NCBI RefSeq assembly: GCF_946463545.1
Contig: NZ_OX296583.1
Coordinates: 1,215,035 to 1,279,034, forward strand
DNA: 64,000 nucleotides
From: Methanothermococcus thermolithotrophicus DSM 2095
Lineage (GTDB): Archaea > AGJL01 > Methanococci > Methanococcales > Methanococcaceae
Direction: 5' to 3'
The translations under genes and the position numbers were made by a program. Within the stretch, counting starts at the first letter, position 1. Every line of letters begins with the position of its first letter. This document shows, piece after piece, positions 388-59,438 of this stretch. Below the pieces are notes generated by a model, which was not told where the DNA came from, searched no databases, and worked only from the letters and a program-made list of their open reading frames with translations.

Positions 388-3300
388 TTAAGGCTTCTCA
401 ATTTTCACTACTTTATCATCCTGCCATTCTACAAATACTGGTTCATCCGGAATGTCATCCAATGTTTTGAAGTATTCCACTGCTGCCTTTGTTCCCCATC
501 TATCTGAACCTGCTAATAGTATTACTGTATGTCCATTTATTAGCTGCTTTTGGATAACCCCTTTATGAGCTCCTGGGTAGTCGTTGGTTACTTTTACTTT
601 AAAGGTCCATGCGTATTTTTTAACTAGTGGGTTTGCTACTGGTCCCCCAACTAAGATGCAATCTTCGGTTATTCCCAATGATTTATTTACCAATTCAGTG
701 GTATTTTTAAGGCATTTTGCTGATAAGTTGTCGTCTGTTTCTGAACCTATTATTAGTTTGTATTTATGAACTATTTCTTTTATTTTTTCTGATTTAATAT
801 CATCTGCTACATTTGGATATTTATCTACAGCTCTATGTCTGGAGCCTGATGATGTTGATGATATTTTAGTTGTTTCAGTGGTTGGCAGTGCTGCAGCAAG
901 TATAATATTTACCTCTGGGTCTTTGACTAAGGTTATTTCCAATACTCCTTCAACAGGTATTCTATACCACCCTATTTTACCAGTGATATCGTTTTCTTTT
1001 AAAGTTATATTTTCTGTTCCATTATTTACGGTTATATCTTCAACATCCAAAGTTCCTATTGGGATTCTTATTATTGAAAATCCTTTATTTGAGGTGTTTA
1101 TTGCTTTGAATTTTATCGTAGATATTAATTTATTATTTTCTTTTTTAGCTTCTTCTTTTGTTATGTTTGTTATGTTGAATCCTTCATTTAGGATTGGTTT
1201 AACCTCTGATAATATATTATCAATTGTTTTATTCATCTCGTTTTCATCGTTAATTTTAGTGTTTTTAAGTTCAGTAGCTTTCTGCGTCACTTCTTTTAAA
1301 GTTTTAATATGTTCTCCGGTAAAGTTTATTGATATGTTTTCAAGATGGGGTATCTCAATACTATCATTTTTTACTGGAATTACTGTTATATTAAGGCCTT
1401 TTCCAGATATTATTTTTACATTATCTAAATCAACGTCCTTCAATGCCTCAGAATCCATATTAATATGTTTCAATGCTTCTTTTAATTCTTTCCCCATAAT
1501 TGTGTTGTTTATAAATATTTTCTTAAATTTATATCCTTCACAATCTGACAATGTAGCATGTTTTAGTATTACTGAATATGTATTATTTTCATCAATGAGT
1601 TTGAATGTTATATTTCCAATATTGAATTTTCCAGATTCTGTGAAGTTATAACCGCTTATAAATAGACTGTCATTATTTACACTCCAATTAACTATGCCAA
1701 TTCCACTTACATTTAAAATTTCGATATTTTTAAAGGTTAGGTTAATATCATAACCACTACAAGGTCTTTTAGAACTTATAGATTCTGTATCAATAGATGC
1801 CACAATAGTTCCATTAGTTTCAGATGTATTATATAATTTCAAATAAACAGGTACTTCAACAACTTTTAAGTTTTTAACCAGTTTATTATCGCTTTCATTT
1901 TCTTCTTTAATGACATTTGATTTATCAACTACTGCAACAATTGTATATATTCTTGTATCATCCGGTGTCCAATTAAAGCTTACTGTTTTTGTTTCTCCAA
2001 TATTTAATGAATCAACAGTTTTTACTCCCAAGTCCTTTGAATCTATGTATAAATGAACATCAAATGATTTATTTGCTATATCCTGATGACCATTGTTTGT
2101 TAATGTTATATTTATTGTTGTCGGCATTCTATATATTGATGGATTTGAAATTTCCATATCGATGATTTTAATGTTTGGTCCCTGAACTACAACAGTTTTT
2201 GGATTAATAACTATATTATTAAATTTGTATCCATTTATATCGGATACTACAACTCCATCTAACCCAATTTCTGAGTTTCCAACATCCAATGCCTTAAAGG
2301 TTGCTTTTGCAATGGTTGTTGATGTGTTTATACTTCCATCCATTATACTGAATACAACTTTTCCATCTTCAAAGGTAATGTTTTTAAGGTTTTCTGACGC
2401 GTTTATTAAGAACGTAAAGTTTGCGCATTCCAATATTTTTGAATCGTAGGTTAAAACTCCATCCATCCCTTTTACAGGTCTGTTTGCTGTAATGCTGTCT
2501 AATGATATATTAACAGTAAATGTTTCATCTGTTTTTGTTAGGTTTGTTGATGGGATTAAGTTTAATGCGATAGGTTCTTCAACTGATTCAACTGTTTTTA
2601 TATATTTGTTATTGTTTTCATTAATTTCTTTTATTTCTCCATTTGAATCAACTACGGTAACAATTGTATAGTTTTTATTTTCTATCGGCATAAATGTAAA
2701 GTTTATGTTTTTTGTTTCTCCAACATTTAATCCTGTAATGGTTTTTGTTCCAAGGTCTTGGGAGTCAATATACAATACTACTGAGAAATTATTTGAAGCG
2801 TTTCTTTCACCGATATTTTTAATTGTAATTGATATTGTATTATTTTGATATGATTTTAAGTTTGACACTAAAATATCAGTAATTGTTAAATCTGATCCAG
2901 GAATAATTATCTTTGTGATATCTGAATTTTTAACAACGCTGTAACTTTCATTATCCTTGATAGTAACATCCTTTAACTGAGTTGTGGTGTTTCCAACATT
3001 TATTATGTTATAAGTAATATTTACTGTGAAATTTGTTGATTTATTAAGGCCATCTATTTTAAAGAAGTCATTTGAGGTATTAAACAAAACAGTCCCTGCG
3101 CTTGATGATATATTAACCGGTGTTATTATTGTTTTATCGTAGCTCAGCGTTCCACTAATTTCACTTAGAGTTTCATTTTCTTTTGGGGATATGATTATTG
3201 GAACGGTTATATTCTCTCCGAGCTCACCACTTACAGTTGCAGGGGTTATTATATCAGCTATTGGTTTTAGTAGTATTGTTATGTTTGAGTTTTTTAGAGT

Positions 3301-3741
3301 TAATGGTTCAATATGGAACCCATTTACATCAGACATGACAGTTCCGCTTAATGATACTGCTCCACTTCCCTCATTTAATGTATTAAATGAAAGAGTTGCT
3401 ATTGTGAAGTTTCCTGTAAAACTATTACTAAACCATAATGAAATCCAAATTTTTCCATTAGATACAGTTATATCATCTTTAGTTGTATGTCCACTTATAT
3501 CTTTTAGGACGATATTACTTTCAGATATATTCATCATACTTGAGTTATAATTAATATATGTCTCAAAGCCCTCGCACCCGGTATCGTTTGGGACATTTTT
3601 TACAACTAAATCCAAATTAAATGAATCCCCAGTATATGCATTTACATTGTCTGGGACTAATTCTACTGATACATCTTCTGCATAACACATCCCAATTAGA
3701 GAAATCATCAAAACCGAGAGTGTAAAAAACTTCCACTTCAT
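388..3741 (-). CDS. Secreted cohesin/CARDB scaffold protein with S-layer-type C-terminus
   Basis: This 1117-residue protein has a Sec signal peptide (about 1-21). A cohesin-like domain follows at about 22-156, starting VSVELVPDN. A second beta-rich, probably cohesin-like module lies at 163-280. CARDB domains lie at about 282-385 and 522-628, and further cohesin-like modules at 390-512 and 630-745. The last 130 residues resemble the C-terminal domain of methanogen S-layer proteins (ILVGGPVANPLV near 1029, LLAGSDRWGTKAAVEYF near 1075). NxS/T sequons are abundant, as in glycosylated archaeal surface proteins. I infer a surface scaffold that binds the dockerin-bearing proteins encoded next door. 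A GGTGA ribosome site lies just before the ATG. The cohesin assignment is by pattern and by near identity of the first domain to that of the protein at 6930-9011. Which modules really bind dockerin cannot be told from sequence alone. Confidence 0.82.
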   Translation of the reverse strand: MKWKFFTLSVLMISLIGMCYAEDVSVELVPDNVNAYTGDSFNLDLVVKNVPNDTGCEGFETYINYNSSMMNISESNIVLKDISGHTTKDDITVSNGKIWISLWFSNSFTGNFTIATLSFNTLNEGSGAVSLSGTVMSDVNGFHIEPLTLKNSNITILLKPIADIITPATVSGELGENITVPIIISPKENETLSEISGTLSYDKTIITPVNISSSAGTVLFNTSNDFFKIDGLNKSTNFTVNITYNIINVGNTTTQLKDVTIKDNESYSVVKNSDITKIIIPGSDLTITDILVSNLKSYQNNTISITIKNIGERNASNNFSVVLYIDSQDLGTKTITGLNVGETKNINFTFMPIENKNYTIVTVVDSNGEIKEINENNNKYIKTVESVEEPIALNLIPSTNLTKTDETFTVNISLDSITANRPVKGMDGVLTYDSKILECANFTFLINASENLKNITFEDGKVVFSIMDGSINTSTTIAKATFKALDVGNSEIGLDGVVVSDINGYKFNNIVINPKTVVVQGPNIKIIDMEISNPSIYRMPTTINITLTNNGHQDIANKSFDVHLYIDSKDLGVKTVDSLNIGETKTVSFNWTPDDTRIYTIVAVVDKSNVIKEENESDNKLVKNLKVVEVPVYLKLYNTSETNGTIVASIDTESISSKRPCSGYDINLTFKNIEILNVSGIGIVNWSVNNDSLFISGYNFTESGKFNIGNITFKLIDENNTYSVILKHATLSDCEGYKFKKIFINNTIMGKELKEALKHINMDSEALKDVDLDNVKIISGKGLNITVIPVKNDSIEIPHLENISINFTGEHIKTLKEVTQKATELKNTKINDENEMNKTIDNILSEVKPILNEGFNITNITKEEAKKENNKLISTIKFKAINTSNKGFSIIRIPIGTLDVEDITVNNGTENITLKENDITGKIGWYRIPVEGVLEITLVKDPEVNIILAAALPTTETTKISSTSSGSRHRAVDKYPNVADDIKSEKIKEIVHKYKLIIGSETDDNLSAKCLKNTTELVNKSLGITEDCILVGGPVANPLVKKYAWTFKVKVTNDYPGAHKGVIQKQLINGHTVILLAGSDRWGTKAAVEYFKTLDDIPDEPVFVEWQDDKVVKIEKP

Positions 3742-3809: not shown

Positions 3810-5171
3810 TTAATTTGCAGTGTATGGGGTTGCTGTTCCAGTGTCTGGGTCATAACTAAGGAAGTAATGGGTGGTTCTTCCACTGAATGCATCTGGGTGT
3901 ATGATTGTTCCCAAATCCATTAATACTTCATCTGTATTCATAAGTCCAAATTGCCAGTAATCTTCACTTATACAGAATAATTTACCATTCTGAACTGATT
4001 TAAATAAGTCATATCCAGGATGGTCATTTTTGAAGTTCGATAGCCAGTTTGTATTTGATGGCACGACCCAAATATCGGCACCTTTTGCTCTTTCGGCAAA
4101 TGTTTCATAGTCAATCTTTGCACTGCCTGTTCCAGGATAATCACTGAATATATAGTTCCCATGACAGTCATCCATTATTCCCTTAGCTATATAGGATTGA
4201 GCTTTAGGTACATAGGTTCCACCATAGGATGGGTAATTTTTACCCCATGCAACTAGAACAGGTTCTTTGCCTCTTGTTAATCTTCTAACATTTAATGCCT
4301 TCTTTTCAACCTTTGTGAAGTATTTGCTTGCCATATCTTCTTTATTGTAGTATGCTGCAAACATCTTGACCCATTCACATCTTGCGAGATATGAATCTTC
4401 TAAATATTCTGCATTTGCGATATAAGTAATATTCAAATCGTTACATTTTGCAATAATGGCATCCCCACTGTATCCTGGATATACTAATACCGCCTGTGGA
4501 GATATGTTTATTATTATATCATAATTTGGACTGTATGATGAACCAACGTCAACTATGGAGCCGTTATCAAGCCCTTGTTTAATATCGTCGAAATACCATG
4601 TGTAGCCTCCACCCCACATGATTCCTTTAACTGAATCAATTACTGAACCATCACTGTTTAATGGTTGCATTAGTGCTATATGAGTAGAGCTCATTACAAC
4701 TACATTTGTCAATGGAACATTTAGGATTTTATCATATTTTCCATCAGTCCAGGTTGGTATGGATTGAGATGCATTTTTTAATAAGAATTTCTGCCCTGTG
4801 GCATCTTCAACTATTTTATATGAGTATGCATCGCCGTTGTATGGATTTACTTCATTTCCATTTTCGTCATAGTATGTAATCTTTATATTTTTGGCATAAT
4901 GGATAGGTTTTCTCAGACTGTCATAGTTTTTGAACAGATATACCACATCGGCAATATCTATTGAATTATCACAGTTCAAATCTCCATCTTCAAGGTTGAG
5001 ATTTCTATTTTTGAACAGATATACCACATCGGCAATATCTATTGAGTTGTCTGCATTTACATCGCCTAATCTGTGGTTGTAATCCCCATTTGCAAATGAA
5101 GGAGATATACATATTAATAAAGATAATACACTAAGTATTATCATAAGATGAGTATTTATATTTTTCGACAT
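3810..5171 (-). CDS. Dockerin-tethered FecB/BtuF-type substrate-binding protein (1)
   Basis: A 453-residue secreted protein. The signal peptide (1-27) has no lipobox Cys. A type I dockerin follows at about 35-85, with two calcium loops, DVNADNSIDIAD and DLNCDNSIDIAD, each followed by VVYLFKN. From about 90 to the end it is a periplasmic-binding-protein type 2 domain of the iron-chelate/cobalamin class. Landmarks include SPQAVLVYPG, WVKMFAAYYN and DYPGTGSAKIDYETF. The dockerin takes the place where a lipid or membrane anchor would be expected. I therefore infer that this binding protein is docked on the neighbouring cohesin proteins and feeds the FecCD-type permeases at 10732-12928. The start has a GGTGATGTAAT ribosome site. 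The ligand is unknown; a metal chelate or corrinoid/tetrapyrrole is likely by family. Confidence 0.85.
   Translation of the reverse strand: MSKNINTHLMIILSVLSLLICISPSFANGDYNHRLGDVNADNSIDIADVVYLFKNRNLNLEDGDLNCDNSIDIADVVYLFKNYDSLRKPIHYAKNIKITYYDENGNEVNPYNGDAYSYKIVEDATGQKFLLKNASQSIPTWTDGKYDKILNVPLTNVVVMSSTHIALMQPLNSDGSVIDSVKGIMWGGGYTWYFDDIKQGLDNGSIVDVGSSYSPNYDIIINISPQAVLVYPGYSGDAIIAKCNDLNITYIANAEYLEDSYLARCEWVKMFAAYYNKEDMASKYFTKVEKKALNVRRLTRGKEPVLVAWGKNYPSYGGTYVPKAQSYIAKGIMDDCHGNYIFSDYPGTGSAKIDYETFAERAKGADIWVVPSNTNWLSNFKNDHPGYDLFKSVQNGKLFCISEDYWQFGLMNTDEVLMDLGTIIHPDAFSGRTTHYFLSYDPDTGTATPYTAN
4921..5063 (-). repeat. Dockerin-coding 143-bp block identical to 9227-9369
   Basis: Read on the minus strand, these 143 bases match 9227-9369 on the plus strand without a single mismatch, while the flanking binding-protein sequences have diverged strongly. 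Inside the block, a roughly 40-base unit encoding NSIDIADVVYLFKN occurs twice with one base difference. Recent duplication or gene conversion of the dockerin module is the simplest reading. Confidence 0.9.
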
Positions 5172-5314
5172 ATTACATCACCCAAAAAGTTTTTAAAGTA
5201 ATATTCTAATCATATATTGTATTTTATTTAGGCTATGCGAGAAGACTTTAAGAAAATTCATAGTTATATATTATGGTTTAATTTAATACATGTAAAAATA
5301 TCTTTAATACATTA
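5157..5314. repeat. 158-bp tandem direct repeat, copy 1
   Basis: This is a perfect copy of 5315-5472, read base by base with an offset of 158. It contains the first five codons, the ribosome binding site and the upstream promoter region of the dockerin-binding-protein gene that starts at 5171. Confidence 0.93.
5202..5215 (-). promoter_or_regulatory. 14-bp motif shared with cobN upstream region
   Basis: On the minus strand this reads ATATGATTAGAATA. The same 14 bases occur at 18201-18214. In both cases the motif sits 31-44 bases upstream of the A of the start codon (5171 and 18170). A further copy lies at 5360-5373 inside the tandem duplication. It could be a core promoter element or an operator. 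Confidence 0.45.
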
Positions 5315-5472
5315 TATATTTTTCGACATATTACATCACCCAAAAAGTTTTTAAAGTAATATTCTAATCATATATTGTATTTTATTTAGGCTATGCGAGA
5401 AGACTTTAAGAAAATTCATAGTTATATATTATGGTTTAATTTAATACATGTAAAAATATCTTTAATACATTA
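5315..5472. repeat. 158-bp tandem direct repeat, copy 2
   Basis: The second perfect copy of 5157-5314. It contains a dead duplicate of the start codon and first codons of the binding-protein gene. It ends 30 bases before the start of the cohesin gene at 5503. Confidence 0.93.
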
Positions 5473-5502
5473 AAATAAATATTAAAATATGAACGTGATA
5501 TC

Positions 5503-6063
5503 ATGAAAAAAATAATATTGGTTATTGCCCTGTCCATTCTGTTAATCCCCATGGTTTTGGCAGATGATGTAAGTCTAAATGTAAATATGCCTAACGAAGT
5601 AAATAAAGGCGATAATTTTACTATCAATATAGATGTTAATGTAAAAAATAAGGATATATCGGGTTTTGAATGCACAGTGAAAATCCCTATCGAAAACGTG
5701 GACAATATAAATATAACAAGTATCACAGGAAACGAAGAAATAAAAAAAGAAGCAGGGAAATTCTATGAAATTAAAAAGAAAGATTCATTAGTATCTATAA
5801 GATTTGCCACTTTTGGAACGCCATTGAATTCAGATTTTCATTTAATGACCATAAACGCAGTAGCTTTAAAAGAAGGTAATGTATCATTTACATTTGAATC
5901 AATAGCATCTGATGAAAATGGACAAAGGATTCCTGTTGATAAAAAAACAACTGATTTAATAATAATCGACAATAACAACAAAACAGTTGAATCCAGTGAA
6001 AATTTTTTATCATCGATAATTAACGCTATAATGAATTTTTTAAAATCCATACTCGGTGGTTAA
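5503..6063 (+). CDS. Small secreted cohesin-like protein
   Basis: A 186-residue protein with a signal peptide (1-20, MKKIILVIALSILLIPMVLA) and one cohesin-like beta domain (about 21-155). The opening DDVSLNVNMP, the GFECTVKI strand and the ASDENG segment parallel the cohesins of the neighbouring proteins. The C-terminus (about 166-186) is hydrophobic and could touch the membrane, but is short for a standard anchor. GTGAT lies before the ATG. It is the first gene of a tightly coupled trio: its stop codon abuts the next start. I infer that it is a dockerin receptor; the fold is assigned by resemblance only. Confidence 0.7.
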   Translation: MKKIILVIALSILLIPMVLADDVSLNVNMPNEVNKGDNFTINIDVNVKNKDISGFECTVKIPIENVDNINITSITGNEEIKKEAGKFYEIKKKDSLVSIRFATFGTPLNSDFHLMTINAVALKEGNVSFTFESIASDENGQRIPVDKKTTDLIIIDNNNKTVESSENFLSSIINAIMNFLKSILGG

Positions 6064-6933
6064 ATGAATATAACTAAATTATTAATTATATCTATTTTTT
6101 TTGTATTGTTTACTGAAAATTTTGCACTAGATGATATTGTTGTGAGATTAACCCCCGATAACATAGAAACGAGTGGAGATTTGGTAAATTTTAATATTAC
6201 AGTAGAAAATATACCTCCAAAGGAAAGTTTAGGTGTGCCCTCATCGTATACTGACCCAGAAATAAAGGACGGTGGATGTCAAGGTGTAGATATTTATATA
6301 AACTATTCAAAGGATTATTTAAGCCCCATTGGATTTAATTGGAGCGATAAGTGTAAGGATGTTAAAATAAAGGAATATAAATTCGAAGATGGAATTTTTT
6401 ATTTATCAATAATGTTTAATGAGATAATATATGATAATACTGTAAACCTCGGGACAATAACCTTCAACCCCATAAAAAAAGGAGAAACTACATTAAATGT
6501 TAGCGGTAAGGTGAGCTCCGAATGGGGCATTAAATATGATGAGGATAATAAGTATTGGCGTAATTATGGTGAAACGTCACAATATAAAGAGCCCTACCCT
6601 GACACTAAATTCTATGGTGCAACAGTAAATATTAAGGAAATAGGAAATTACACAGGTTCTACTAGTTTAAGCGGAGAATTGAATGAAAATGCAATTTCAT
6701 CATCACCTTCTTCATCGACAATAATCAACAAGGTAAATGTAATTGCAAACCAAAATGCGCCCGAAATTGTTGTAAAGGAAATAAATATTTCAGAAGAGAA
6801 GCCGAATATAACGATTATAATAAATACTGATGGAAAAAATGGTTTGGATTACAACCTGTTAATATCTATTTTTGTTGGAAGCATTTTATCTGGAATCACA
6901 TTTGGATTATTATTTAGAAGGATGATACTATGA
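6064..6933 (+). CDS. Membrane-anchored cohesin-like protein
   Basis: A 289-residue protein with a signal peptide (about 1-21). A cohesin-like domain follows at about 22-195 (DIVVRLTPDNIETSGD, GGCQGVDIYINYS), then a Ser/Asn-rich linker. One transmembrane helix lies near the C-terminus (about 263-284), followed by a short basic tail (RRM). Its ATG directly follows the previous stop codon, which indicates translational coupling. The layout of secreted domain, linker and anchor suits a cell-surface receptor for the dockerin-bearing binding proteins. Binding specificity is inference from context. Confidence 0.7.
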   Translation: MNITKLLIISIFFVLFTENFALDDIVVRLTPDNIETSGDLVNFNITVENIPPKESLGVPSSYTDPEIKDGGCQGVDIYINYSKDYLSPIGFNWSDKCKDVKIKEYKFEDGIFYLSIMFNEIIYDNTVNLGTITFNPIKKGETTLNVSGKVSSEWGIKYDEDNKYWRNYGETSQYKEPYPDTKFYGATVNIKEIGNYTGSTSLSGELNENAISSSPSSSTIINKVNVIANQNAPEIVVKEINISEEKPNITIIINTDGKNGLDYNLLISIFVGSILSGITFGLLFRRMIL

Positions 6934-9011
6934 AATACATAATTTTATTTCTATCCTTTTTTGTTTTTTTATCGGGAGTATGTGGTGAAAATGTATCCGT
7001 AGAATTAGTTCCAGACAATATAAATGCGTATGTTGGAGATACATTCAACTTAGATTTAGTTGTAAAAAATATCCCTACTGATAGGAAATGTGGTGGATTT
7101 GAAACTACAATATCTTATGATTCAAGTATTTTGAATTTAACAAATATTGCGTTAAGTGATACGTCCAATACTGCAAATTTAAAAGAAGTGGATGTTTCAG
7201 CTGGAAAGATAAAATTATTATGGACGTCAAATGAACCCTATGGTAACTTTACAATAGCAACACTATCATTTAATGCGTTAAAGGATGGAAATGATTCAGT
7301 AGATTTAACTCAAACTTCCGTATCTGATGTAAATGGAGTAAAATATTATATAACTTTAAAAAACTCAAACATAACAATAAATCCATTAAACCAGACTTTA
7401 GGAACCATTACATTGAAAGATTTTGAACTGAATAAAAATATTGATGCAGTTTTATCTATAACTGGAGCAAAAACTCCTATAAAGAATATTTCAGGTAGCA
7501 TTTCATTCAAGAATATAACAATAGAAAACAGTCCTACTCTGATGGATATATTTTGTAATAATTTCAGCTATACCATATATAATAACAATATTTCATTTTT
7601 TATTATTCCAAATGAAAAGGACGAAAATAAAACCATATTCAATCTTTTAAAAATACCTGTGAATGTCAATGATGCTAACTATAATATTTCAATGGACTTA
7701 ACGATAAATGGGGAGCAAATCAAGAACATAACAATAAAAACGGAAGAAAAACAGGAAAATATCTCAGAGTATAAAGGGTTGGTATTCTATGTAGATTCTG
7801 GATATAATGAAGAAACAAATATCTCAATAGGTTATTCAAAAGAAATTAAATTAAAAGTATATAATATTGACAAAAATTTAACAAATTTTTCAGGATATAT
7901 TTTCATAAATAGTTCCTTATTTGATGTTTCAGATTATGGAATTCCAGAATATTCTGCCATATATAATAGGATAAACACATCAAATATTACATTAAATAAC
8001 AGCCACTTGTATTTCAATATTTCGCTAACAAACGGGACAAACGGGACATTTAGTATTTTAAAGTTTAAATTATCTTCAAAGATTAATGAGAATATATCTT
8101 CAATAATATATCTTGAAAATCTATCCATATACGCAAATGATACAAAAATAAACTTATCGATTAAAAATTTAACAGTGAATATTGTAAAAAGGGAATCCAA
8201 CAACCCGCCAAAATTAAAAATAGTCTACAAAATAGTTAATAACAAAGAAGTCCATTTTTATGCCTTAGGCTATGACGAAGATAACGACGATTTAAAATAT
8301 GTATGGGATTTTGGAGATGGGAAAAACTCAACAGACGAAAATCCAATTCATATATATTCAAATTATTCGATATATAAAATAGGATGTATTGTTAAGGACC
8401 CATTAAATGGAACAGATAAAGTGGAAGGGATTATATCTATTAAAAATATTAATCCAGTAAATTATTCAATTTCCAATGATTCATTCATGTTGGACAAACA
8501 AAATGAAAATAAAACCATTTATTTGAATATAACCTTAAAAAATCCATTAATTCATAATGTTGATGGATATATCAATTTTGTAGATTATGGCGATAATTAT
8601 CGTCCACTAAAAACCCAGTATCAAGTTATATTAAAGCCAAATGGAACAAAAAATCTTATTATTCCAATAAATGTGTCAAAATCATGTGAAATTAAATGGA
8701 ATGTCGTATATTATCCTAATATACGAAGTGATACAAGAGATAGCATAGACTTCAAATTCTATCAATGGGATTTTGAAAAAAAGATAGAATTCAAATCCAA
8801 ACCCCAAGTGGTAATAAATAATTATACAAAAATCATAACCCTCAACAATACAAAGATAATATTAAAAGTAAATAAAGTTGAGACCGTTAAAAACTATGTT
8901 ATAAACAAAACCCTAACAACTACAAGTCAAAACTCTATGCCATATTATACATTTGCTTCATTATTTGGATTTATCATAGGCATCATATTAATTAGATTTA
9001 AAATTAAATAA
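6930..9011 (+). CDS. Membrane-anchored multi-domain cohesin/PKD surface protein
   Basis: A 693-residue protein with a signal peptide (1-19). Its cohesin-like domain at about 20-150 is nearly the same as the first module of the scaffold at 388-3741 (NVSVELVPDN, FNLDLVVKNIP). Two further beta domains follow at about 155-270 and 275-425, then a PKD domain (about 430-515, VWDFGDGKNSTDENP). Another beta region precedes a C-terminal transmembrane helix (about 671-689) ending RFKIK. It overlaps the previous gene by ATGA. Many N-glycosylation sequons are present. It probably projects a cohesin away from the membrane so that dockerin-bearing solute-binding proteins can be held near their permease. Confidence 0.75.
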   Translation: MKYIILFLSFFVFLSGVCGENVSVELVPDNINAYVGDTFNLDLVVKNIPTDRKCGGFETTISYDSSILNLTNIALSDTSNTANLKEVDVSAGKIKLLWTSNEPYGNFTIATLSFNALKDGNDSVDLTQTSVSDVNGVKYYITLKNSNITINPLNQTLGTITLKDFELNKNIDAVLSITGAKTPIKNISGSISFKNITIENSPTLMDIFCNNFSYTIYNNNISFFIIPNEKDENKTIFNLLKIPVNVNDANYNISMDLTINGEQIKNITIKTEEKQENISEYKGLVFYVDSGYNEETNISIGYSKEIKLKVYNIDKNLTNFSGYIFINSSLFDVSDYGIPEYSAIYNRINTSNITLNNSHLYFNISLTNGTNGTFSILKFKLSSKINENISSIIYLENLSIYANDTKINLSIKNLTVNIVKRESNNPPKLKIVYKIVNNKEVHFYALGYDEDNDDLKYVWDFGDGKNSTDENPIHIYSNYSIYKIGCIVKDPLNGTDKVEGIISIKNINPVNYSISNDSFMLDKQNENKTIYLNITLKNPLIHNVDGYINFVDYGDNYRPLKTQYQVILKPNGTKNLIIPINVSKSCEIKWNVVYYPNIRSDTRDSIDFKFYQWDFEKKIEFKSKPQVVINNYTKIITLNNTKIILKVNKVETVKNYVINKTLTTTSQNSMPYYTFASLFGFIIGIILIRFKIK

Positions 9012-9151
9012 TCATTTTTTAATATATTTAATACTATTCTAATAATTATTTATAAATAAATGATAAATTTTAAATATTATTCTAGTTAATATAATATTAT
9101 AATAATATAAATATCTAATTAATTATTACCAATAGATAAAAAGGTGTTAGT

Positions 9152-10417
9152 ATGAAACGAGTATTAATACTCTCTATTTTGGCATTGATATCATTGATTC
9201 CCGTAGCTATGGGGGCAGAAATCGGGGATGTAAATGCAGACAACTCAATAGATATTGCCGATGTGGTATATCTGTTCAAAAATAGAAATCTCAACCTTGA
9301 AGATGGAGATTTGAACTGTGATAATTCAATAGATATTGCCGATGTGGTATATCTGTTCAAAAACTATGATACATTTAGACGTCCAGTTGTATTTGCTGAA
9401 ACATTTAGTTTAGAGCCGCACTGGGATGAAGGATACTGTTATATAGTAGATTCAAAGGGATACAAATTTGTTTTATTAAAAGAAGGAGCAACAGCACCAA
9501 ATATCCCTGATGCAAAGGTAATAACAACACCTGTAAAAAACATTAGTACCATATTTTACTGTCCAATTGTTTCAACAGCAGATATATTAAATGATTCCTC
9601 ATGCTATGATACAATAAAAGGAGTTCCGAGCTCTGTTTTAAAATATTCGCCAGAACTTACAAAAAGATATAACGAAGGTAAAGTTGCAAATATTGGCTCA
9701 TCATCTGAAATTAATTATGATGTAGTGGTTAATACAAGTCCAGATATTGTATTCTTAGGAGATTGGTCATCCCATGATGCAATGGAAGCTAAATTAAATG
9801 AACTAGGTATTACAGTATCAAGGTTCTACACATACGATGAACCAACATTTCTAGGAAGGATAGAGTGGGTGAAATATGCCGCGGCCTTCTGGGGGGAAGA
9901 CAAGTACAACAAAACGAAAGATTACTTCCAAGGTGCATGGAAAAAGAAGAACGAGTTGTTAAGAACAACAAGAAATGCAAATGATTATCCAAAAGTTGTT
10001 AATTTCTGGAAGTGGAGTGATACAAGCACACCGAGTGTTCCACAGGCTCAGAATTTTTACAGTAGGTTGATAAATGACTTTAGAGGAGATTACGCATTTA
10101 ACGACATACCTGGAACAGGTTCTGAAAAATTAGATACAGAAACTTTCATGGAAAGAACAGTAAATGCTGATGTGATTATATTGAGGCAGTGTAAAGATAT
10201 AAAAACAAAAGAAGATTTATTGGCCAGATACCCAACCTCAGGCTTTGAAAACTTCAATGCATATAAAAATGGAAGATTCTATGTTTCAAAACCTGATTAC
10301 TATGTATGGGAAGCAAGGGACCCACTAGGATATATGGAGGATTATGCTAAGATGGTTCATCCAGAGTTATTCCCTAATGGAGATAATGATTTAAAGTACT
10401 ACATCAAACTTCAGTAA
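9152..10417 (+). CDS. Dockerin-tethered FecB/BtuF-type substrate-binding protein (2)
   Basis: A 421-residue protein with a signal peptide (1-21) without a lipobox. An N-terminal dockerin (about 23-73) is identical in its core to that of the protein at 3810-5171. A binding-protein domain follows (about 78-421; INYDVVVNTSPDIVFLG, RIEWVKYAAAFWG, DIPGTGSEKLDTETF). The binding domain is clearly related to that of protein 1 but much diverged, so the two probably bind different forms of ligand. AAGGTG precedes the ATG. It lies directly upstream of the two permease genes on the same strand, though about 300 bases away with repeats between. Confidence 0.85.
   Translation: MKRVLILSILALISLIPVAMGAEIGDVNADNSIDIADVVYLFKNRNLNLEDGDLNCDNSIDIADVVYLFKNYDTFRRPVVFAETFSLEPHWDEGYCYIVDSKGYKFVLLKEGATAPNIPDAKVITTPVKNISTIFYCPIVSTADILNDSSCYDTIKGVPSSVLKYSPELTKRYNEGKVANIGSSSEINYDVVVNTSPDIVFLGDWSSHDAMEAKLNELGITVSRFYTYDEPTFLGRIEWVKYAAAFWGEDKYNKTKDYFQGAWKKKNELLRTTRNANDYPKVVNFWKWSDTSTPSVPQAQNFYSRLINDFRGDYAFNDIPGTGSEKLDTETFMERTVNADVIILRQCKDIKTKEDLLARYPTSGFENFNAYKNGRFYVSKPDYYVWEARDPLGYMEDYAKMVHPELFPNGDNDLKYYIKLQ
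9227..9369 (+). repeat. Dockerin-coding 143-bp block identical to 4921-5063
   Basis: The plus-strand member of an exact 143-bp inverted pair with 4921-5063, encoding both calcium loops of the dockerin. The identity stops at the dockerin borders on both sides. Confidence 0.9.
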
Positions 10418-10619
10418 ACTACCTGCCCTTATGGACTGGCATTTTATGGTCCTGTTAAAATAAATAATAAAATTTTTTATTATTTTTCCAATCTTCCGTT
10501 TTTTAGGAAAATTTACTAATAATTCAAGAGTTAATATTCCATTTACTATTACATTCGCTTTCAGGGTTCCATTCTTTTATAATGACGTGTCTTATTGAAA
10601 TTTTTATGGCTATATTATG

Positions 10620-10651
10620 TTATTTCCTATTTTTTTATAAATTTTAATAAT
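10620..10651 (+). repeat. 32-bp direct repeat, copy 1 (possible duplicated promoter)
   Basis: Identical to 10682-10713, 62 bases apart. It starts TTATTTCCTATTTT and includes a TATA-like element. It lies upstream of the FecCD gene. Confidence 0.75.
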
Positions 10652-10681
10652 TTAGATATTAAGTAGAATTTTTATATATTA

Positions 10682-10713
10682 TTATTTCCTATTTTTTTAT
10701 AAATTTTAATAAT
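10682..10713 (+). repeat. 32-bp direct repeat, copy 2
   Basis: The second exact copy. It ends only 18 bases before the likely TTG start of the permease gene, so any transcript starting from its TATA-like part would have little or no leader. Confidence 0.75.
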
Positions 10714-10731
10714 ATAGTTATGGGTGGAATT

Positions 10732-11781
10732 TTGAAAGTTAAAAGATTTTTGGGATTGTATATATTATCTTTAGTATTGTTGGTAATTTTATCTTATTTT
10801 AGTATTGCAGAAGGGACAATTCCAATAAAAGATGAACAGTTGGAAAAATATTTATTAGAAGGAACTACTGGAAATGTAATTATGGATCAAATTATAGAAA
10901 AATTAAGACTTCCAAGGGTTGTTGGAGCAATTGTTGTTGGATTAGGTATTGCCGTGGCAGGGATTTTAATGCAAGGGTATTTTAGAAATCCACTGGCAGA
11001 CCCCTATTTAATGGGTGTGGCAAGTGGAGCATCTCTTGGCGTTGTTTTGTATGTTTTTACATCGTTATTGTTTAAAATGGGGGTTCCTCGTTCAATATAT
11101 GGATTTATTATCTCTGCGTATATTGGCTCATTAGCCACCATGGTTGCTGTTATAAATATGGCAAGAATTGTAAAGCAAACTGCAACATTATTGATTTGCG
11201 GTATTATGATAGGAGCAATAGCATCTGGATTAACCACGCTTGTTGTATATACTGGGGATTATATGGGTGAAGAAAATTCCAAACTCGCAGAGTATTTAAT
11301 GTGGGGGATGGGCTCACTTAACAATTTAACATGGGGCCAGATTAAGATTATGACGATTGTAATAATTCCAACAGTTATTTTAACTTACATATTTTTTTCA
11401 AAAAAACTTGATGCAAACCTTCTTGGAGAGAAATATGCCATAAGTGTTGGAGTAGATGTAAAAAATTTAAGAAAATGGCTGATAACATTATCCTGCATAT
11501 TGACGGCAACTGTTGTATCATTTACAGGGCCTATTGCCTTTGTAGGGTTGGTATGTCCCATTATGGCAAGAATGATTTCTGGCACCTCAAAGCACATCTA
11601 TGTAATACCTATGACGGCTTTATTGGGTTCTATATATGTGCTATTTGCAGATATACTAACAAGACCTGGAGTAGTAATACCACAGACATCCAACAATATT
11701 CCACTATTGGCTCCATTATCCATAATCGGAGCTCCGATTGCTATAATTGTATATCTAAAAGTTAGAAAAATGGGAATATAA
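10732..11781 (+). CDS. FecCD/BtuC-family ABC permease (1)
   Basis: A permease of the iron-siderophore/cobalamin (FecCD, BtuC) class with about ten membrane helices and usual length (about 350 residues). Family landmarks are [23 protein letters not shown]-type N-terminal signature, [19 protein letters not shown], and the cytoplasmic [15 protein letters not shown] loop that contacts the ATPase. An in-frame ATG lies at 10720 without a ribosome site. GGGTGGA at 10722-10728 points to TTG at 10732 (MKVKRFLG) as the true start. It is followed after 16 bases by a second, different permease, so a heterodimeric channel is possible. The substrate is probably that of the dockerin-borne binding proteins. 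Confidence 0.9.
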
Positions 11782-11797
11782 AATTTAAAAATGGGAT

Positions 11798-12928
11798 ATG
11801 ATGAATTATAGATATGTTATAATTTTAGCTTTACTTGTTTCAGTGGTTGGATTATTTATTACTGGGGTGTATTTTGGTGGAAATGCCAAATCAATTACAA
11901 TAGATGATACTACAAATTTTGTTATATATCAAACAAAAAGTACGGTGGATTCCATATATTATAAAATAACTGGGAAGCATATTTTTCCCCAAACTCCATT
12001 GGATGAAAGTACTAAATTTAAATATATCATATTAAAAAAATATCGTTTACCACCAATTGTTGGAGCAATTCTTGTGGGTTTAACGTTATCAACATGCGGT
12101 TTAATGTTGCAGACATTATTTAGAAATCTTTTATCATCCCCATATACGACAGGTATCTCAAGTGGAGTTTTATTTGCTGTTACACTTGTTATATTTATAT
12201 ATAGTTTTGCAGAACTATTTTCAACCTTTAAAGTAGATGAAAATATAATAGCAGGATGGTGTGGTGGATTATTATCACTAATCATGCTTATTATTATAGC
12301 CCTTAGGGTTAAAGAAGTAAATGGAGTTTTGATTGTTGCTCTGTTAATGAGTTACCTATTTAGGGGAATAAGTGCATATCTAATGGCAAATGGAACAGAT
12401 TTTACAATTCAGGAGTATTATACGTTCATTATTGGAAATGTAGCGAGAGTTAATGTAAATAATATATTTCAGATGGTCATATCCACAATAGTATTTATAA
12501 TTGGGAGTATTTTTTTAATAAAACCATTAAACGCCCTGTTATTTGGTGAAACCTACGCAAAAAGTTTTGGGTTAAATGTAAAAAAGATTAGAATATTGAT
12601 ACTATTATTGGCATCATTTATTGTAGGGGTTATAATTCCGTATGTTGGGTTAATGGCATTTGTGGGTATTGCAGCACCATATTTGGCAAGACCTATTATA
12701 AGAACCTCAGACCACAGGTGGCTACTGCCTGCAACTATGCTTGTTGGTGTGGTGTTGATGCTCATGTGTCATATTATTTCATTGAAATACTGGGTCCCCA
12801 TCTTTTACCTGTATAATATAGACCGTCCAGCTCAGGTTTTACCAATAGGCTCCATCCTTGACGTACTAGGTGGATTACTGGTAATATATTTAGTATATAA
12901 TGGTGAAAAAAAGATAAGAATACAATAA
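11798..12928 (+). CDS. FecCD/BtuC-family ABC permease (2)
   Basis: The second FecCD-type permease (376 residues, about ten helices). It contains LPPIVGAILVGLTLSTCGLMLQ-type and RNLLSSPYTTGISSGVL signatures and a GLMAFVGIAAPYLARP ATPase-contact loop. It diverges clearly from the first permease, with a longer periplasmic segment after helix 1. Two tandem ATG codons open the frame; no strong ribosome site is seen, so translation may be coupled to the upstream gene. The paired permeases could form a heterodimer or serve one binding protein each. The likely ATPase is encoded convergently at 12988-14127. Confidence 0.88.
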   Translation: MMNYRYVIILALLVSVVGLFITGVYFGGNAKSITIDDTTNFVIYQTKSTVDSIYYKITGKHIFPQTPLDESTKFKYIILKKYRLPPIVGAILVGLTLSTCGLMLQTLFRNLLSSPYTTGISSGVLFAVTLVIFIYSFAELFSTFKVDENIIAGWCGGLLSLIMLIIIALRVKEVNGVLIVALLMSYLFRGISAYLMANGTDFTIQEYYTFIIGNVARVNVNNIFQMVISTIVFIIGSIFLIKPLNALLFGETYAKSFGLNVKKIRILILLLASFIVGVIIPYVGLMAFVGIAAPYLARPIIRTSDHRWLLPATMLVGVVLMLMCHIISLKYWVPIFYLYNIDRPAQVLPIGSILDVLGGLLVIYLVYNGEKKIRIQ

Positions 12929-12987: not shown

Positions 12988-14127
12988 TTATTCTAACATC
13001 TCTTTTAAAGATTTAATATTTCCATCATATTTTATTACCTTCTTATTCGTATTAATCGCATGTTCAACAAGTTTTTTATTTAAAATATTGGTCTGCCCCA
13101 CTGGAAAATCCGTATATATAACTACATCAGATGTTCTGAGCTCATGTAATGCCTTTTCAAATTTTTCATTTGATATGGGTTCATAAGGCTCTTCGCATAT
13201 TATCTCCAATTCCATGGTTTTTGCCACAATATAATCTATATCATTTTTATGTAATATTCCTACAACCACATCGTATCCATTCTTAGTAAGAAATCTTAAC
13301 ACATCAACACCTGTCCCTGCACCACAAACTAAAAAAATCCTATTATAACCCCCAAATCCAGAATTTGCATTTTTTAGTTCAAAATAACCTATTATTTCGT
13401 TGTAATTTGCATTATCCAAATCATAAAGATTATTTACGATTTCTTTTTTCATAACATCCTCTGGATGTCCGTATGCTATTACCCTGTGGTTTTTTATTAA
13501 TGCCATTTTATCGGCTATCCTCAGAGCGAGCTCTATATCATGAAGTGTAACAATTATTGCTAAATTATTTTCTGTTGCAAGTTTTCTCAGTAAAAGAGTC
13601 AGTTCAATTTTATGTTTTGCATCCAAAAAACTCGTTGGCTCATCCAGTATGAGAGCGTTAGGTTTCTGAGCAAGAGCTCTTGCTATCATTATCTTCTGTC
13701 TCTCCCCATCACTCATTTCAAAAAAGTTTTTATTTAATAGATACTCGGCATTTACAGATTTTGCGGCATGTGTGATTATTTCCTTATCCTTTTCGGTTAA
13801 TCTACCAAATAAATCAGTGTAAGGGTGCCGTCCAATGGCGATAATATCATATCCAGTCATATTTCCCGGATTTACTCGCTCAGTTAATACCACTGCCATT
13901 TCCTTTGCAAGTTTTTTTGGCGTTAAACTATGTATATTTTGACCATTTAAATAAACTACCCCCTTTTTAGGTTTTAAATATGTTGCTATGGTTTTTAGAA
14001 GTGTGGATTTACCTGCACCATTTGGACCTATGATGCACAGTATTTCTCTTTCCTTTATATGTAAATTCACATCTTCAACTACAATATAATTTTTATATCC
14101 TACAGTTAAATTCTCAGTTTTTAACAT
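12988..14127 (-). CDS. ABC transporter ATPase, FecE/BtuD type, with extra C-terminal domain
   Basis: A 379-residue protein. Residues 1-255 are a standard ATPase of metal-chelate/cobalamin importers, with Walker A GPNGAGKS (34-41), signature MSDGE (138-142), Walker B ALILDE (158-163) and switch His 196. About 120 residues (258-379) extend beyond the usual FecE length. They begin IFLVCGAGTGVDVLRFL and look like a Rossmann-type nucleotide or ligand-binding domain, possibly regulatory. GTGAT precedes the ATG. It converges with the permease genes, leaving 59 bases between. I infer that it powers those permeases, since no other ATPase of this type lies near. Confidence 0.88.
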   Translation of the reverse strand: MLKTENLTVGYKNYIVVEDVNLHIKEREILCIIGPNGAGKSTLLKTIATYLKPKKGVVYLNGQNIHSLTPKKLAKEMAVVLTERVNPGNMTGYDIIAIGRHPYTDLFGRLTEKDKEIITHAAKSVNAEYLLNKNFFEMSDGERQKIMIARALAQKPNALILDEPTSFLDAKHKIELTLLLRKLATENNLAIIVTLHDIELALRIADKMALIKNHRVIAYGHPEDVMKKEIVNNLYDLDNANYNEIIGYFELKNANSGFGGYNRIFLVCGAGTGVDVLRFLTKNGYDVVVGILHKNDIDYIVAKTMELEIICEEPYEPISNEKFEKALHELRTSDVVIYTDFPVGQTNILNKKLVEHAINTNKKVIKYDGNIKSLKEMLE

Positions 14128-14504: not shown

Positions 14505-17500
14505 TTATTTAATGGCCAAATTTTCCTTTAATTTATCTTTCCATGTTAAATCAATATCAATGCCCCCGCCTTGGAAGTCTCCAATATCAACATCTCCGTA
14601 GGTGTCCTCAATATCTCCTTCAATTTCCATATAAATTCTTTTTAATTCTTCAAGGTTCTCTTCACTTGTTTTCCAAAGGCCTCTTTGATATGCCTCCAGC
14701 AATCTCCTACTAATTTCTTCTAATGCATAGATGTTGTTTTCTTTAAAGAATTTCCTATTTTCCTCATTTTTCACATGGGTGTTGAATATCTCATCAAAAA
14801 CCCAATTATCAACCTCTTTTGTTGTGGCACTCCATCCAAATACTCTTCCAACTCTCTTCGCTATATCTCCTGCCCCTTTATAATCATGTCTTTTCATCCC
14901 TTCAATCCACTTTGGATTTAAAAGTTTTGATAAGGAAACCCTCTCTATCTCCTCCTTTAAAGTCCTTATCTCAACTTTATTTGGATTTCTCGTATCCTCA
15001 TAATAGACCTTAACATCCTTTTTTGAAATGACCCTTGCAGCATTTGTTAATCCACCATGCGTTCCAAAATAACTACAGCATCCAAATAAATCATATTCAT
15101 CAGTAACGGTTTTGTTAAATGTCAAGTCAACACTCTTTAAGATACTTTCAAATGCATCCTTTGCAAATGTTCCGTGAACATTTTTTCCATAAGCATATGA
15201 GTTCCAAAGCATGAATGCATCCTTTAAATCTTCCTCATTTTCCCATGCACTTGAATATATTGCATATTTAACCCCATTCCCATAAGTCCCTGGTTTTGAA
15301 CTGAATATTCTATATGTTGCTTCTCTGAGGGATAACTCCTTCTCTAAACCTTCTAACACATGTTTTTTAACAAAATTCATCTCTATTGGTTCATCTAACT
15401 TTGCCACTTTTGTTATTGCCTCATCAACAATTTCTATACAATTTGGGAAATTATCTCTCAAAATCCCACTAACCCTTATAGTCACATCAATTCTCGGTCT
15501 TCCCAACTCCTCCAATGGAATAACTTCTACACCAACAATCGTCCCATGTTTCCATTTTGGTTTAACCCCTAATAGATGAAGAATTTGTGCCATCCCCTCT
15601 CCATCAGACCACATAATATCTGATGCCATCCAATAACTAGCAACGTTTTCAGGATATTTACCATTTTCGTTGATATATTTTTCAATCAACTTCTCAGCCA
15701 ATAAAACTCCGACCCTATATGCTGCCTTTGTTGGAATCTTATACGGATCAAGAGAATAGAAGTTCCTTCCAGTTGGAAGAATATCATCCCTTCCTCTTGT
15801 TATTAATCCAGATGGTCCCGGTTCTATATATTTTACATCAATGGCATTTAAAAGTGCATTTATTTCCTTAGATTGTTCTAATCTTTCATTTATATCAAAT
15901 ATTTTTTCTTTTAATTCATTATCCTCAATATTTATTCCATCTAATACGTTTTTTATCTCATCTTGCAACTTTCTTTTATATTCAAACTCCAAAATGGTAT
16001 TTATAAATTCAACTTTTCTTTCCCCGCTTGGTAGTTCCCCAAATATATGCATACCATCATTTATCTTTGAATTCTTTATCATTTCCAAGGTATTTCTCAA
16101 TTCATCAAAGATTTCCTTAAAGTTTGAATGAATTGAGTAAGACTCTTCGAGTTTTGCAGCTCTCCGCTTTGCTCCGATATCACCTTCTTTTGAAATATTT
16201 TCTATTTTCTCCTTAATTTTTAATAAGTTGGTTTTCTTTACTTCTTCAATAATTAAATGCTCTAACTGATGCCTTCTTGATGTATTCATATCTTTTAGAT
16301 ATTCGTTTACATAATTATCTAGGGTTTCAAGTTCTTCATTCATTGCATCGGTCATTACCGTTTGCATGTGGTCAATTAATACTGCATAACTTCTTCTCTT
16401 TGCAATAGTTCCCTCTGGTGGGTTATCTGAGTTGTAAATGTATAAGTGAGGAATGTCATTTATGCAGATATCTGGATAACATTCATTTGATAAACCAACA
16501 TTCTTCCCAGGCAAAAATTCCAAAGTACCGTGGGTTCCAACATGAACTATAACATCAGCAATCTCACTGAAATACTTATATGTGGCAATGTATTGGTGTG
16601 TTGGTGGGCATTCTGGGTCGTGCAAAATTTTGCATACGTTTCCATCACATCTTGCTCCCGCACAACCTCTCTTTGGTTGAACGCAGACATATATATTTCC
16701 AAATTCTAAGCCAGTTATGACAATCTTGTTTTTTCCAGTACTGTCTTTATAAATCATAGATGCTGGGATATCTTTTCCATTTAAGTCTCCCCACGTATCT
16801 AAAACCTTCTTTTTAACGTTTTCTGGAAGTGTCTTGAAGTATTCCATATACTCTTCTTCATCCATTAGGTATAGATGGCCTCCTTTTGCAATAATCTCAT
16901 TTACAGTCGTCCATCTAAATTCGGAGATTGCCTTTTTGTCTAATATCAATTTTGCCAATTCGTTTCCATTTTTGGGAATATTTTCAATACAATAACCTTC
17001 CTCGTTCATCTTTTTCATTATTCTTATCAAACTTTCAAATGAATCCAAATGTGCAGCACTTCCAACCGTTGCCTCAACAGATGCACATGCAGCATTATGC
17101 AAAACAAATATGACTTTTCTATCTTTTTTTGGTTTGTTTTTTAATTCCATCCATTTTTTTATTCTTTTAACTACTTTATCAATCCTATCATCTATTGGCA
17201 TTTTCTTTTCCAAGTTCCCCTCCTTATGTACGGTTCCAATTAAAATTGGTTCTATAACCCCTTCAAATTCAGGTAAGGCAATTGTCCACCCTATATCCGC
17301 AGATAATCCTTGTATGTCATTTTTCCATTCTTCGTAGGTTTTGTAGTAGCTCACTATTGGATGGAAAACAGGGATGTTGAGTTTTTTTAGGACATCTATT
17401 CCTTGCAATTTCTTTAAACTGCCTTTTTCAACGACCGTTCCCAATGGAAAAGATAGTAAATTTATTAATGTATCTATTATTGGTTTTTCATTCTTAAAGA

Positions 17501-18170
17501 AGTATTTTAAGATACACTCTCCCCCTCCTATGGCATTTAAATCTTCATTTTTTGCCCCATAAGAAAAAACAGGAATTATATTAAAGTATTTTTCCAATTT
17601 ACTTATCAGGGCATTTATAACGCCCATATCTTCATTCATAAGATAATGTCTTGAAAATAAAACCCCTATGGTATTCTTTTTATTAAAGTCTGCATTATTT
17701 AAAAATTCATCCAGATTCTCAAAGATTTCTCCCCTATAAAATATACCTTGGAAGGGTAGTTCTTTTGGTGGAGATAGGGGGAGGGCCATGTTTAAGGTTT
17801 CTTTTATAAGGTACATAATGAGATTTTTGAAATTTTCAACTCCTCCGTAAACCGTATATAGATATGCTTTGTGAGATAGCTTTGAGTTCCAATATGTGGG
17901 ATCTTGGCTTGTTACTATTAAATTTTTGAATTTATTGGCACTAATATCTTCATAAAAATCATCAGTGGAAGTTCTATACATAAAAACAATATCCGACTTT
18001 TTTGCGTCATTTAAAAAATCGTCCAATTTATCTGGCATATCTTTTGTTGAATATAGTCTTAAATCAACATTTAAATGAGATAATTCTTTTTTTAATTCAT
18101 CCCATGCTTTGTTTAATATGGAGCAATAGGATGCCCACATTAGGGTAGTTATAGTTATGGTTTTAGACAT
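14505..18170 (-). CDS. cobN: CobN/BchH-family metal chelatase large subunit
   Basis: This 1221-residue protein matches the CobN/BchH/ChlH family over its length. The most conserved block lies at about 498-560: VQPKRG, then HDPECPPTHQYIA, then HVGTHGTLEFLPGKNVGLS (543-562). Later landmarks include PTGRNFYSLDP and SYWMASDIMWSDGEGMAQIL. An unusual feature is a Cys cluster, C503-x4-C508-x4-C513-x7-C521, inside the core block; it could hold an iron-sulfur cluster or zinc. The partner AAA+ and von Willebrand subunits are encoded divergently. CobN proteins insert cobalt in the aerobic B12 pathway, yet methanogens use the anaerobic route and have CfbA for F430. Its role here is therefore open; processing of an imported tetrapyrrole, as proposed for HmuS-type CobN homologues, is attractive. 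The start is set by GGTGATTAT. Confidence 0.88.
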   Translation of the reverse strand: MSKTITITTLMWASYCSILNKAWDELKKELSHLNVDLRLYSTKDMPDKLDDFLNDAKKSDIVFMYRTSTDDFYEDISANKFKNLIVTSQDPTYWNSKLSHKAYLYTVYGGVENFKNLIMYLIKETLNMALPLSPPKELPFQGIFYRGEIFENLDEFLNNADFNKKNTIGVLFSRHYLMNEDMGVINALISKLEKYFNIIPVFSYGAKNEDLNAIGGGECILKYFFKNEKPIIDTLINLLSFPLGTVVEKGSLKKLQGIDVLKKLNIPVFHPIVSYYKTYEEWKNDIQGLSADIGWTIALPEFEGVIEPILIGTVHKEGNLEKKMPIDDRIDKVVKRIKKWMELKNKPKKDRKVIFVLHNAACASVEATVGSAAHLDSFESLIRIMKKMNEEGYCIENIPKNGNELAKLILDKKAISEFRWTTVNEIIAKGGHLYLMDEEEYMEYFKTLPENVKKKVLDTWGDLNGKDIPASMIYKDSTGKNKIVITGLEFGNIYVCVQPKRGCAGARCDGNVCKILHDPECPPTHQYIATYKYFSEIADVIVHVGTHGTLEFLPGKNVGLSNECYPDICINDIPHLYIYNSDNPPEGTIAKRRSYAVLIDHMQTVMTDAMNEELETLDNYVNEYLKDMNTSRRHQLEHLIIEEVKKTNLLKIKEKIENISKEGDIGAKRRAAKLEESYSIHSNFKEIFDELRNTLEMIKNSKINDGMHIFGELPSGERKVEFINTILEFEYKRKLQDEIKNVLDGINIEDNELKEKIFDINERLEQSKEINALLNAIDVKYIEPGPSGLITRGRDDILPTGRNFYSLDPYKIPTKAAYRVGVLLAEKLIEKYINENGKYPENVASYWMASDIMWSDGEGMAQILHLLGVKPKWKHGTIVGVEVIPLEELGRPRIDVTIRVSGILRDNFPNCIEIVDEAITKVAKLDEPIEMNFVKKHVLEGLEKELSLREATYRIFSSKPGTYGNGVKYAIYSSAWENEEDLKDAFMLWNSYAYGKNVHGTFAKDAFESILKSVDLTFNKTVTDEYDLFGCCSYFGTHGGLTNAARVISKKDVKVYYEDTRNPNKVEIRTLKEEIERVSLSKLLNPKWIEGMKRHDYKGAGDIAKRVGRVFGWSATTKEVDNWVFDEIFNTHVKNEENRKFFKENNIYALEEISRRLLEAYQRGLWKTSEENLEELKRIYMEIEGDIEDTYGDVDIGDFQGGGIDIDLTWKDKLKENLAIK

Positions 18171-58588: not shown

Positions 58589-59437
58589 ATGCTAAAAAAA
58601 CTGATATTATTGCTAACTCTGATTGTAGTGCCAATGGTATCTGCGACGGATGTTATTTTAGTAAGTGACAATCCTGCAGATTACGTGGCTGTGGAAGGTA
58701 TAGCAAAGGCAGTTAATGCAACAGTAATAAAGACGCCGTGGGGCATTTTCAATGAAAGCGTTTTAGATGAAATAAAATCATTGAATCCTAATAATGTTAT
58801 TGTTGTAGGGGGCCCGATGGCAGTTGTTGAAAACTACACAAAAGAATTAGAAAATATAGGAATTGAAGTTGAGAGAATTGCTGGAGAAAATAGATACGAA
58901 ACCAATGCAAACCTTGTATTGAAATTTAAGCATATGTTTGGAAATGGAACTACCGTATATGTTTACCATGGAGACGATATAGCGTTGAATGGAACATTTC
59001 AAGGAATGGATAAACCACTCTTGGTATTACTTACAAATGGGGTTAATTTAACGGTAGATCCCGAAGATTTAGACCTTGAAATTGAGGAAGTTGAAGTGAT
59101 GGACAGTCCACTATATAACGGTTCATTAGTAGCAGAAAAATTTAAAATGAAAGGAGCTAATGTAAAAATTAAAGCTGTTCCACAAGACGAAATAGAAGTT
59201 ATGATGGAAAATAAAATCACTGCACTTAAAATGAAAATCGATCTATTGAAAAGTCAAGGAATAGATGCATCAGAACTGGAAGATAAGTTAGAAGAATTAG
59301 AAAGTATATTGGATGAAACTGAAGAAGCAATGGATGAGGACAAATACGAAGAGGCCTATAAATTAATGGTAGAACTTCAAGGAGAACAGATGGCAATAGT
59401 TGTTAGAGCTCACGAGATGGACGATGACCACTTATGA
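58589..59437 (+). CDS. Secreted CWB2-type surface protein (1)
   Basis: About 282 residues. A signal peptide (about 1-20) is followed by CWB2-like (cell-wall-binding repeat 2) modules: VILVSDNPADYVAVEGIAKA, NNVIVVGGPMAVVENYTKE, ERIAGENRYETNANL. A helical coiled-coil domain follows (MKIDLLKSQGIDASELEDKL). GGTGAAATAT selects the ATG at 58589. The frame stops at 59435-59437 just after HEMDDDH. The DNA beyond encodes, in the +1 frame, a His/Glu-rich tail (59439-59705) whose counterpart in the paralogue at 60026 is in frame. The protein as read is thus probably truncated. Confidence 0.8.
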   Translation: MLKKLILLLTLIVVPMVSATDVILVSDNPADYVAVEGIAKAVNATVIKTPWGIFNESVLDEIKSLNPNNVIVVGGPMAVVENYTKELENIGIEVERIAGENRYETNANLVLKFKHMFGNGTTVYVYHGDDIALNGTFQGMDKPLLVLLTNGVNLTVDPEDLDLEIEEVEVMDSPLYNGSLVAEKFKMKGANVKIKAVPQDEIEVMMENKITALKMKIDLLKSQGIDASELEDKLEELESILDETEEAMDEDKYEEAYKLMVELQGEQMAIVVRAHEMDDDHL

Positions 59438-59438
59438 A

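Follow-up and report, generated by a model that had tools for sequence, protein, structure and literature searches.

The dockerin-like modules of two anciently diverged binding proteins in Methanothermococcus thermolithotrophicus DSM 2095 (Methanococcales; genome G000) are encoded by nearly identical DNA, a pattern of domain-limited concerted evolution for which recurrent gene conversion is the best explanation. The identity includes synonymous codons, the dockerins pair by genome over orthology, the pattern recurs in several lineages, and no net inversion accompanies it in the sequences compared. Judged from these sequences, it is very probable that recurrent conversion has kept the dockerins of the two old proteins identical, probably for a shared docking specificity.

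Organization of the locus

The window (the whole 64-kb stretch of DNA analyzed) carries the genes of both binding proteins, designated A and B, which flank the cohesin operon C186-C289-C693 on the plus strand. The scaffold gene SC1 lies downstream of B, and two FecCD permeases, an ABC ATPase and a CobN-like chelatase lie downstream of A. The predicted features are as follows.

388..3741, minus: SC1, large surface scaffold with cohesins, CARDB and a C-terminal S_layer_C (Pfam Cohesin 1.7e-8 in 2 stretches, CARDB 2.8e-35, S_layer_C 8e-11)
3810..5171, minus: binding protein B, with signal peptide, N-terminal dockerin and Peripla_BP_2 (Pfam PF01497 5.6e-18; orthologues order-wide)
4921..5066, minus: dockerin of B, two F-hand repeats; repeat arm 1 (143 nt exact; 146 nt at 99%)
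5503..6063, plus: C186, single cohesin-fold protein with a C-terminal helix (AlphaFold, Foldseek)
6064..6933, plus: C289, predicted secreted protein of the cohesin operon with a C-terminal TM-like segment (conserved position, hydrophobic C terminus)
6930..9011, plus: C693, cohesin protein with a PKD domain and a C-terminal TM-like segment (PF00963 at genome 1222036-1222365; PKD)
9152..10417, plus: binding protein A, with signal peptide, N-terminal dockerin and Peripla_BP_2 (Pfam PF01497 1.1e-15; orthologues order-wide)
9224..9369, plus: dockerin of A; repeat arm 2 (143 nt exact; 146 nt at 99%)
10720..11781, plus: FecCD-type permease 1 (PF01032 1.4e-65)
11798..12928, plus: FecCD-type permease 2 (PF01032 1.4e-52)
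12988..14127, minus: ABC transporter ATPase (PF00005 4.5e-30)
14505..18170, minus: CobN-like chelatase (PF02514; frequently near A or B in relatives)

Cohesins were recognized in SC1 and C693 by Pfam and in C186 by fold. C186 has no Pfam match above the cut-off, and the top Foldseek PDB matches of its AlphaFold model (pLDDT 82.5) are cohesins, including the archaeal 2xdh (Archaeoglobus fulgidus). C289 has no Pfam match. The C termini of C289 and C693 are hydrophobic, and SC1 has no C-terminal TM-like segment. The first cohesin of C693 resembles the first cohesin of SC1.

Both window dockerins contain two calcium-binding F-hand repeats (DxNxDxxxxxxDVVYLF). Their scores against Pfam Dockerin_1 are 13.7 (A) and 13.8 bits (B), below the cut-off of 22.9, and the modules of the window pair are thus termed dockerin-like on sequence alone. 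Orthologues in G007, G008, G015, G025 and G026 pass the cut-off, some only with neighboring in-frame matches. Weak PDB sequence matches over the module of A, 5lxv_B and 2b59_B, are chains of cellulosomal complexes. The AlphaFold model of A is poor (pLDDT 50.7, 8 sequences) and was left out of the evidence. The sole further dockerin match in the genome is a divergent C-terminal module, not homogenized with those of A and B, of a protein that reads as alkaline-phosphatase-like (G000:C1:1481000-1485000, L090). This module may use the same scaffolds.

Three further repeats were observed in the window. A perfect 158-bp tandem duplication at 5157-5472 takes in the initial codons of B along with the promoter region, and the upstream copy would encode a 5-codon frame, MSKNI-stop, ahead of B; the duplication is either very recent or an assembly artefact. 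At 10611-10721, before the first FecCD gene, two AT-rich 49-nt direct repeats (90%) lie 62 nt apart. A degenerate direct-repeat family at 59436-59701, with 80-nt units 60-76% alike, encodes a histidine-rich stretch.

The inverted dockerin repeat

The initial annotation described an exact 143-bp match of dockerin DNA, inverted and about 4 kb apart, between genes with diverged binding domains. Direct sequence comparison confirmed that 4921-5063 (minus) and 9227-9369 (plus) match over 143 nt with 0 mismatches. A repeat finder placed the arms at 4921-5066 and 9224-9369 (146 nt, 99%, inverted, spacing 4157 nt), which makes them the longest near-perfect inverted repeat within the window. The two arms are the only copies of the repeat in the genome (1,706,496 bases, searched as DNA and as protein). 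Beyond both arms, the identity of the aligned A and B DNA drops at once to background on either side, and the binding domains show identities of only 29.4% in protein and 46.7% in DNA. The sharp edge at the dockerin in the window results from the A and B DNA being alignable there only. The identity had been said to stop at the dockerin borders, which is accurate for the window; the tract runs 5-6 codons farther in G009 and G031, fitting a conversion that halts where alignable DNA halts.

A and B have the same codon at 47 of the 49 dockerin positions, whereas 48% would be expected from the background of this genome, counted where the amino acids agree (binomial P 3e-13), indicating that chance or codon preference is not the explanation. 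For this and the corresponding tests below, the background was taken from the A and B binding domains of the genome in question, as the share of identical codons at residues that they have in common.

Homogenization across genomes

Near-identical dockerin pairs were also found in G009 and G031, which together with G000 span two families. The dockerin DNA of A and B is 98.6%, 98.6% and 99.3% identical in G000, G009 and G031, respectively, and the protein identity of the binding domains is 29%, 31% and 36%. Identical codons number 47/49 in G009 (P 3.5e-10) and 48/49 in G031 (P 7e-9). The exact A/B tracts are 143 nt in G000 and 159 nt in G031, and the tract of G009 is about 165 nt with 2 mismatches. 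Alignment of the locus in relatives, the check proposed at the outset, confined the high identity to the dockerin tract, and the earlier suggestion of ongoing gene conversion is strengthened, since the pattern recurs in no fewer than three genomes from two families.

The closest dockerin to each is that of the partner in the same genome, the best dockerin of another genome reaching 82% (G000), 89% (G009) and 80% (G031). In the dockerin tree, the modules of G000, G031 and G004 pair by genome with strong support, and the G009 modules, though near-identical, do not form a resolved pair. AU tests reject an A clade for the dockerins (p 6.6e-6) and, for the binding domains, pairing by genome in G000 (p 1.8e-77). 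Paralogues are thus closer than orthologues over a limited tract that includes synonymous sites, and the flanks keep the old paralogy, as in concerted evolution. The A and B dockerins of G004 are 89.8% identical; from its sequence, this genome is an older, partly decayed case of homogenization.

Extra A copies with identical dockerins are present in G003 (at least 223 nt exact) and G009 (278 nt exact), with binding domains about 50% identical; the 5' part of each is exactly equal to that of the neighbor copy. The extra copies at L049 8953-10257 and L062 7840-9099 (G009 and G003) contain one in-frame stop each (TAG and TGA). In the draft genome G015, two contigs break within this shared 5' part of two A copies.

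Homogenization may also act within a single dockerin, between its two repeats. In G004 the two repeats of A share CTA and those of B share TTA, and exact 37-38-nt runs common to the two repeats of one dockerin occur in G000, G004 and G007_B. In genomes without A/B conversion, 69% of the codons are identical between the repeats vs. 60% in the same-genome control (P 0.016), a modest excess that would support a minor claim.

Alternative explanations

The inverted pair was initially thought able to drive inversion of the cohesin operon. Reciprocal crossover between the arms could keep flipping the 4.2-kb operon as a switch, with homogenization as a by-product, and the near-identical arms are inverted and 3.7-4.2 kb apart in three genomes. 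However, each flip would turn C186-C289-C693 around and give A the promoter and signal peptide of B, and vice versa. The order and relative orientation of SC1-B and C186-C289-C693 are constant in all relatives that keep the genes together, only one relative orientation of the operon was found among the genome sequences of relatives, and the signal peptides of A and B are class-specific in relatives and never swapped. Inversion has thus not been fixed in any lineage seen, no sign of it was found, and such a switch is quite improbable.

Protein-level selection alone, by which a shared cohesin partner would hold both dockerins to one sequence with no DNA exchange, is highly improbable. The segment is short, its repeats are conserved, and docking modules are expected to match their partner; however, synonymous codons are 96-98% identical against a background of 48-64%, and the dockerin DNA tolerates differences of about 18-25% from one genome to another. 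The synonymous identity refutes this explanation, barring an RNA or DNA constraint separate in each species.

Recent module shuffling, also proposed for the window, would have copied a dockerin cassette into a gene previously without one. The sharp stop of identity at the dockerin agrees with such an event, but the edge is expected anyway from the lack of other closely alignable A/B DNA. Of the 35 other genomes searched within the order, 33 contain relatives of A or B, and in both families the orthologues of each protein carry the dockerin at one shared position behind the signal peptide. Together with the old clades of the binding domains, this shared position indicates that neither recent gene duplication nor fresh dockerin capture explains the identity, leaving shuffling with very little probability. 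A plasmid search returned distant bacterial binding proteins only.

Recent whole-gene duplication with rapid later divergence of the binding domains, named at the outset as the contrary case, has almost no probability, as A and B form binding-domain clades at 100/100 (four-genome test) that are both present in both families and stay separate in a wide tree, genome pairing of these domains is rejected, and nothing in the A/B pair itself resembles duplication, only the extra A copies of G009 and G003 looking like 5' partial duplication or conversion.

Distance and orientation of the gene pairs

The three near-identical pairs, for which recurrent gene conversion is preferred, are all inverted and closely spaced. 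In five genomes the pairs are dispersed, either far apart or on different contigs, and their dockerin DNA is 75-82% identical. In G006 and G023, where the pairs are in direct orientation with 4.9 kb between them, the identity is 72-74% and the A-type protein is of a divergent subtype. Inverted pairs 7.5 kb apart in G026/G030 are not homogenized, and their A-type protein belongs to a more divergent subtype. Near-identity is associated with distance and orientation (Fisher P 0.018) among few related cases uncorrected for phylogeny, and with so few cases the effects of distance, orientation and ancestry cannot be separated.

Cohesin partners and proposed surface anchoring

The first cohesins of SC1 and C693 in G031 are 99.7% identical over 299 nt and form an inverted pair. 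In the first-cohesin tree, grouping by genome is strongly supported for G031 and G004; the domains group by lineage in G001 and G021 and by gene in G000 and G009. Homogenization of the first cohesins is thus evident from sequence in G031 and likely in G004, with no recent event in the window. Within SC1 of G001 (L043 3766-7428), 354 nt are duplicated at 96% identity, which also points to repeat copying in scaffold genes.

In G024, G027, G028, G029 and G033, A and B both lack the dockerin and have lipobox-like signal peptides instead. In these five genomes, Pfam matched neither a cohesin nor a dockerin, and the genes recognized around A or B were FecCD and ABC genes, with none of the cohesin operon. 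The joint absence of dockerin and cohesin together with the lipobox replacement is the best evidence for a dockerin-cohesin surface anchor of the binding proteins, and supports such a role for A and B. It is also plausible that both proteins retain the use of the same cohesins, a suggestion strengthened by the homogenized cohesins and by the joint absence.

Proposed mechanism and relation to known systems

Under recurrent conversion, the dockerin segments would be the sole parts of A and B alike enough to recombine. Methanococcales are polyploid. Between the inverted repeats, some 4 kb from each other, copying could be non-reciprocal, with polyploidy as a possible aid; intermolecular gene conversion is documented in the polyploid archaeon Haloferax (PMC8223754). 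The direction of copying can only be guessed from a few linker residues, which are B-like in G000 and A-like in G031. The benefit would be that A and B dock with the same specificity on cohesins of the adjacent membrane- and S-layer-linked scaffolds. It is possible, though on balance doubtful, that conversion co-maintains both halves of the interface in one locus, the cargo dockerins and the first cohesins of the scaffolds, each as inverted pairs. If true, a change in docking specificity would spread fast to all partners, yet differ between species.

The closest known case is the concerted evolution of mtrA-1/mtrA-2 in Methanococcales and Methanomicrobiales, with long-lasting conversion of one domain (PMC4632066). 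In both cases, within the same order, one domain is homogenized and another kept distinct, and the tree pairs copies by species. There, homogenization affects the MtrA methyltransferase domain and the genes share an operon, whereas here it affects a short docking module of inverted genes about 4 kb apart, and the partner cohesin is homogenized in at least one genome. ANME archaea have dockerins on ABC substrate-binding proteins (NikA/OppA and TroA types) and cohesin proteins, for which an S-layer link was proposed (PMC9012536). The present system shares these features; however, the ANME cases are given by domain only, whereas here Peripla_BP_2 binding proteins occur with a cohesin operon and an importer, homogenized dockerins and lipobox replacement. 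As in type I cellulosomes, the calcium-loop repeats are duplicated with internal symmetry, and several cargoes share a dockerin specificity for one scaffold. In contrast to cellulosomes, the cargoes here are transport binding proteins, none is carbohydrate-active, and the similarity to Pfam Dockerin_1 is weak.

A search of the open-licence literature found no paper on gene conversion or concerted evolution of dockerins. Taken together, the recurrent homogenization of a docking module, the homogenization of some partners and the coupled lipobox replacement form a new version of an evolutionary process that is already known. The locus addresses how several cargo proteins hold one docking specificity while that specificity drifts between species. 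It offers a natural series: pairs that are homogenized, pairs that are dispersed and not homogenized, and lineages in which both proteins together have lipobox anchors in place of docking. At the level of gene content and sequence, it would also give concrete support to a non-cellulose role of archaeal cohesin-dockerin pairs, the keeping of ABC-transporter binding proteins at the cell surface.

Candidate ligand

Docking would hold A and B at the cell surface beside the FecCD/ABC importer. The association of FecCD, Peripla_BP_2 and CobN genes suggests that the ligand is a metal chelate or a tetrapyrrole-like compound. In M. marburgensis, a protein annotated as CobN1 is present at a high level only under nickel limitation (PMC12350162), which makes nickel, by analogy with that different organism, a candidate ligand metal here. 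The CobN-like gene of G025 is seemingly split into four open frames near transporter genes (L055 7678-10852).
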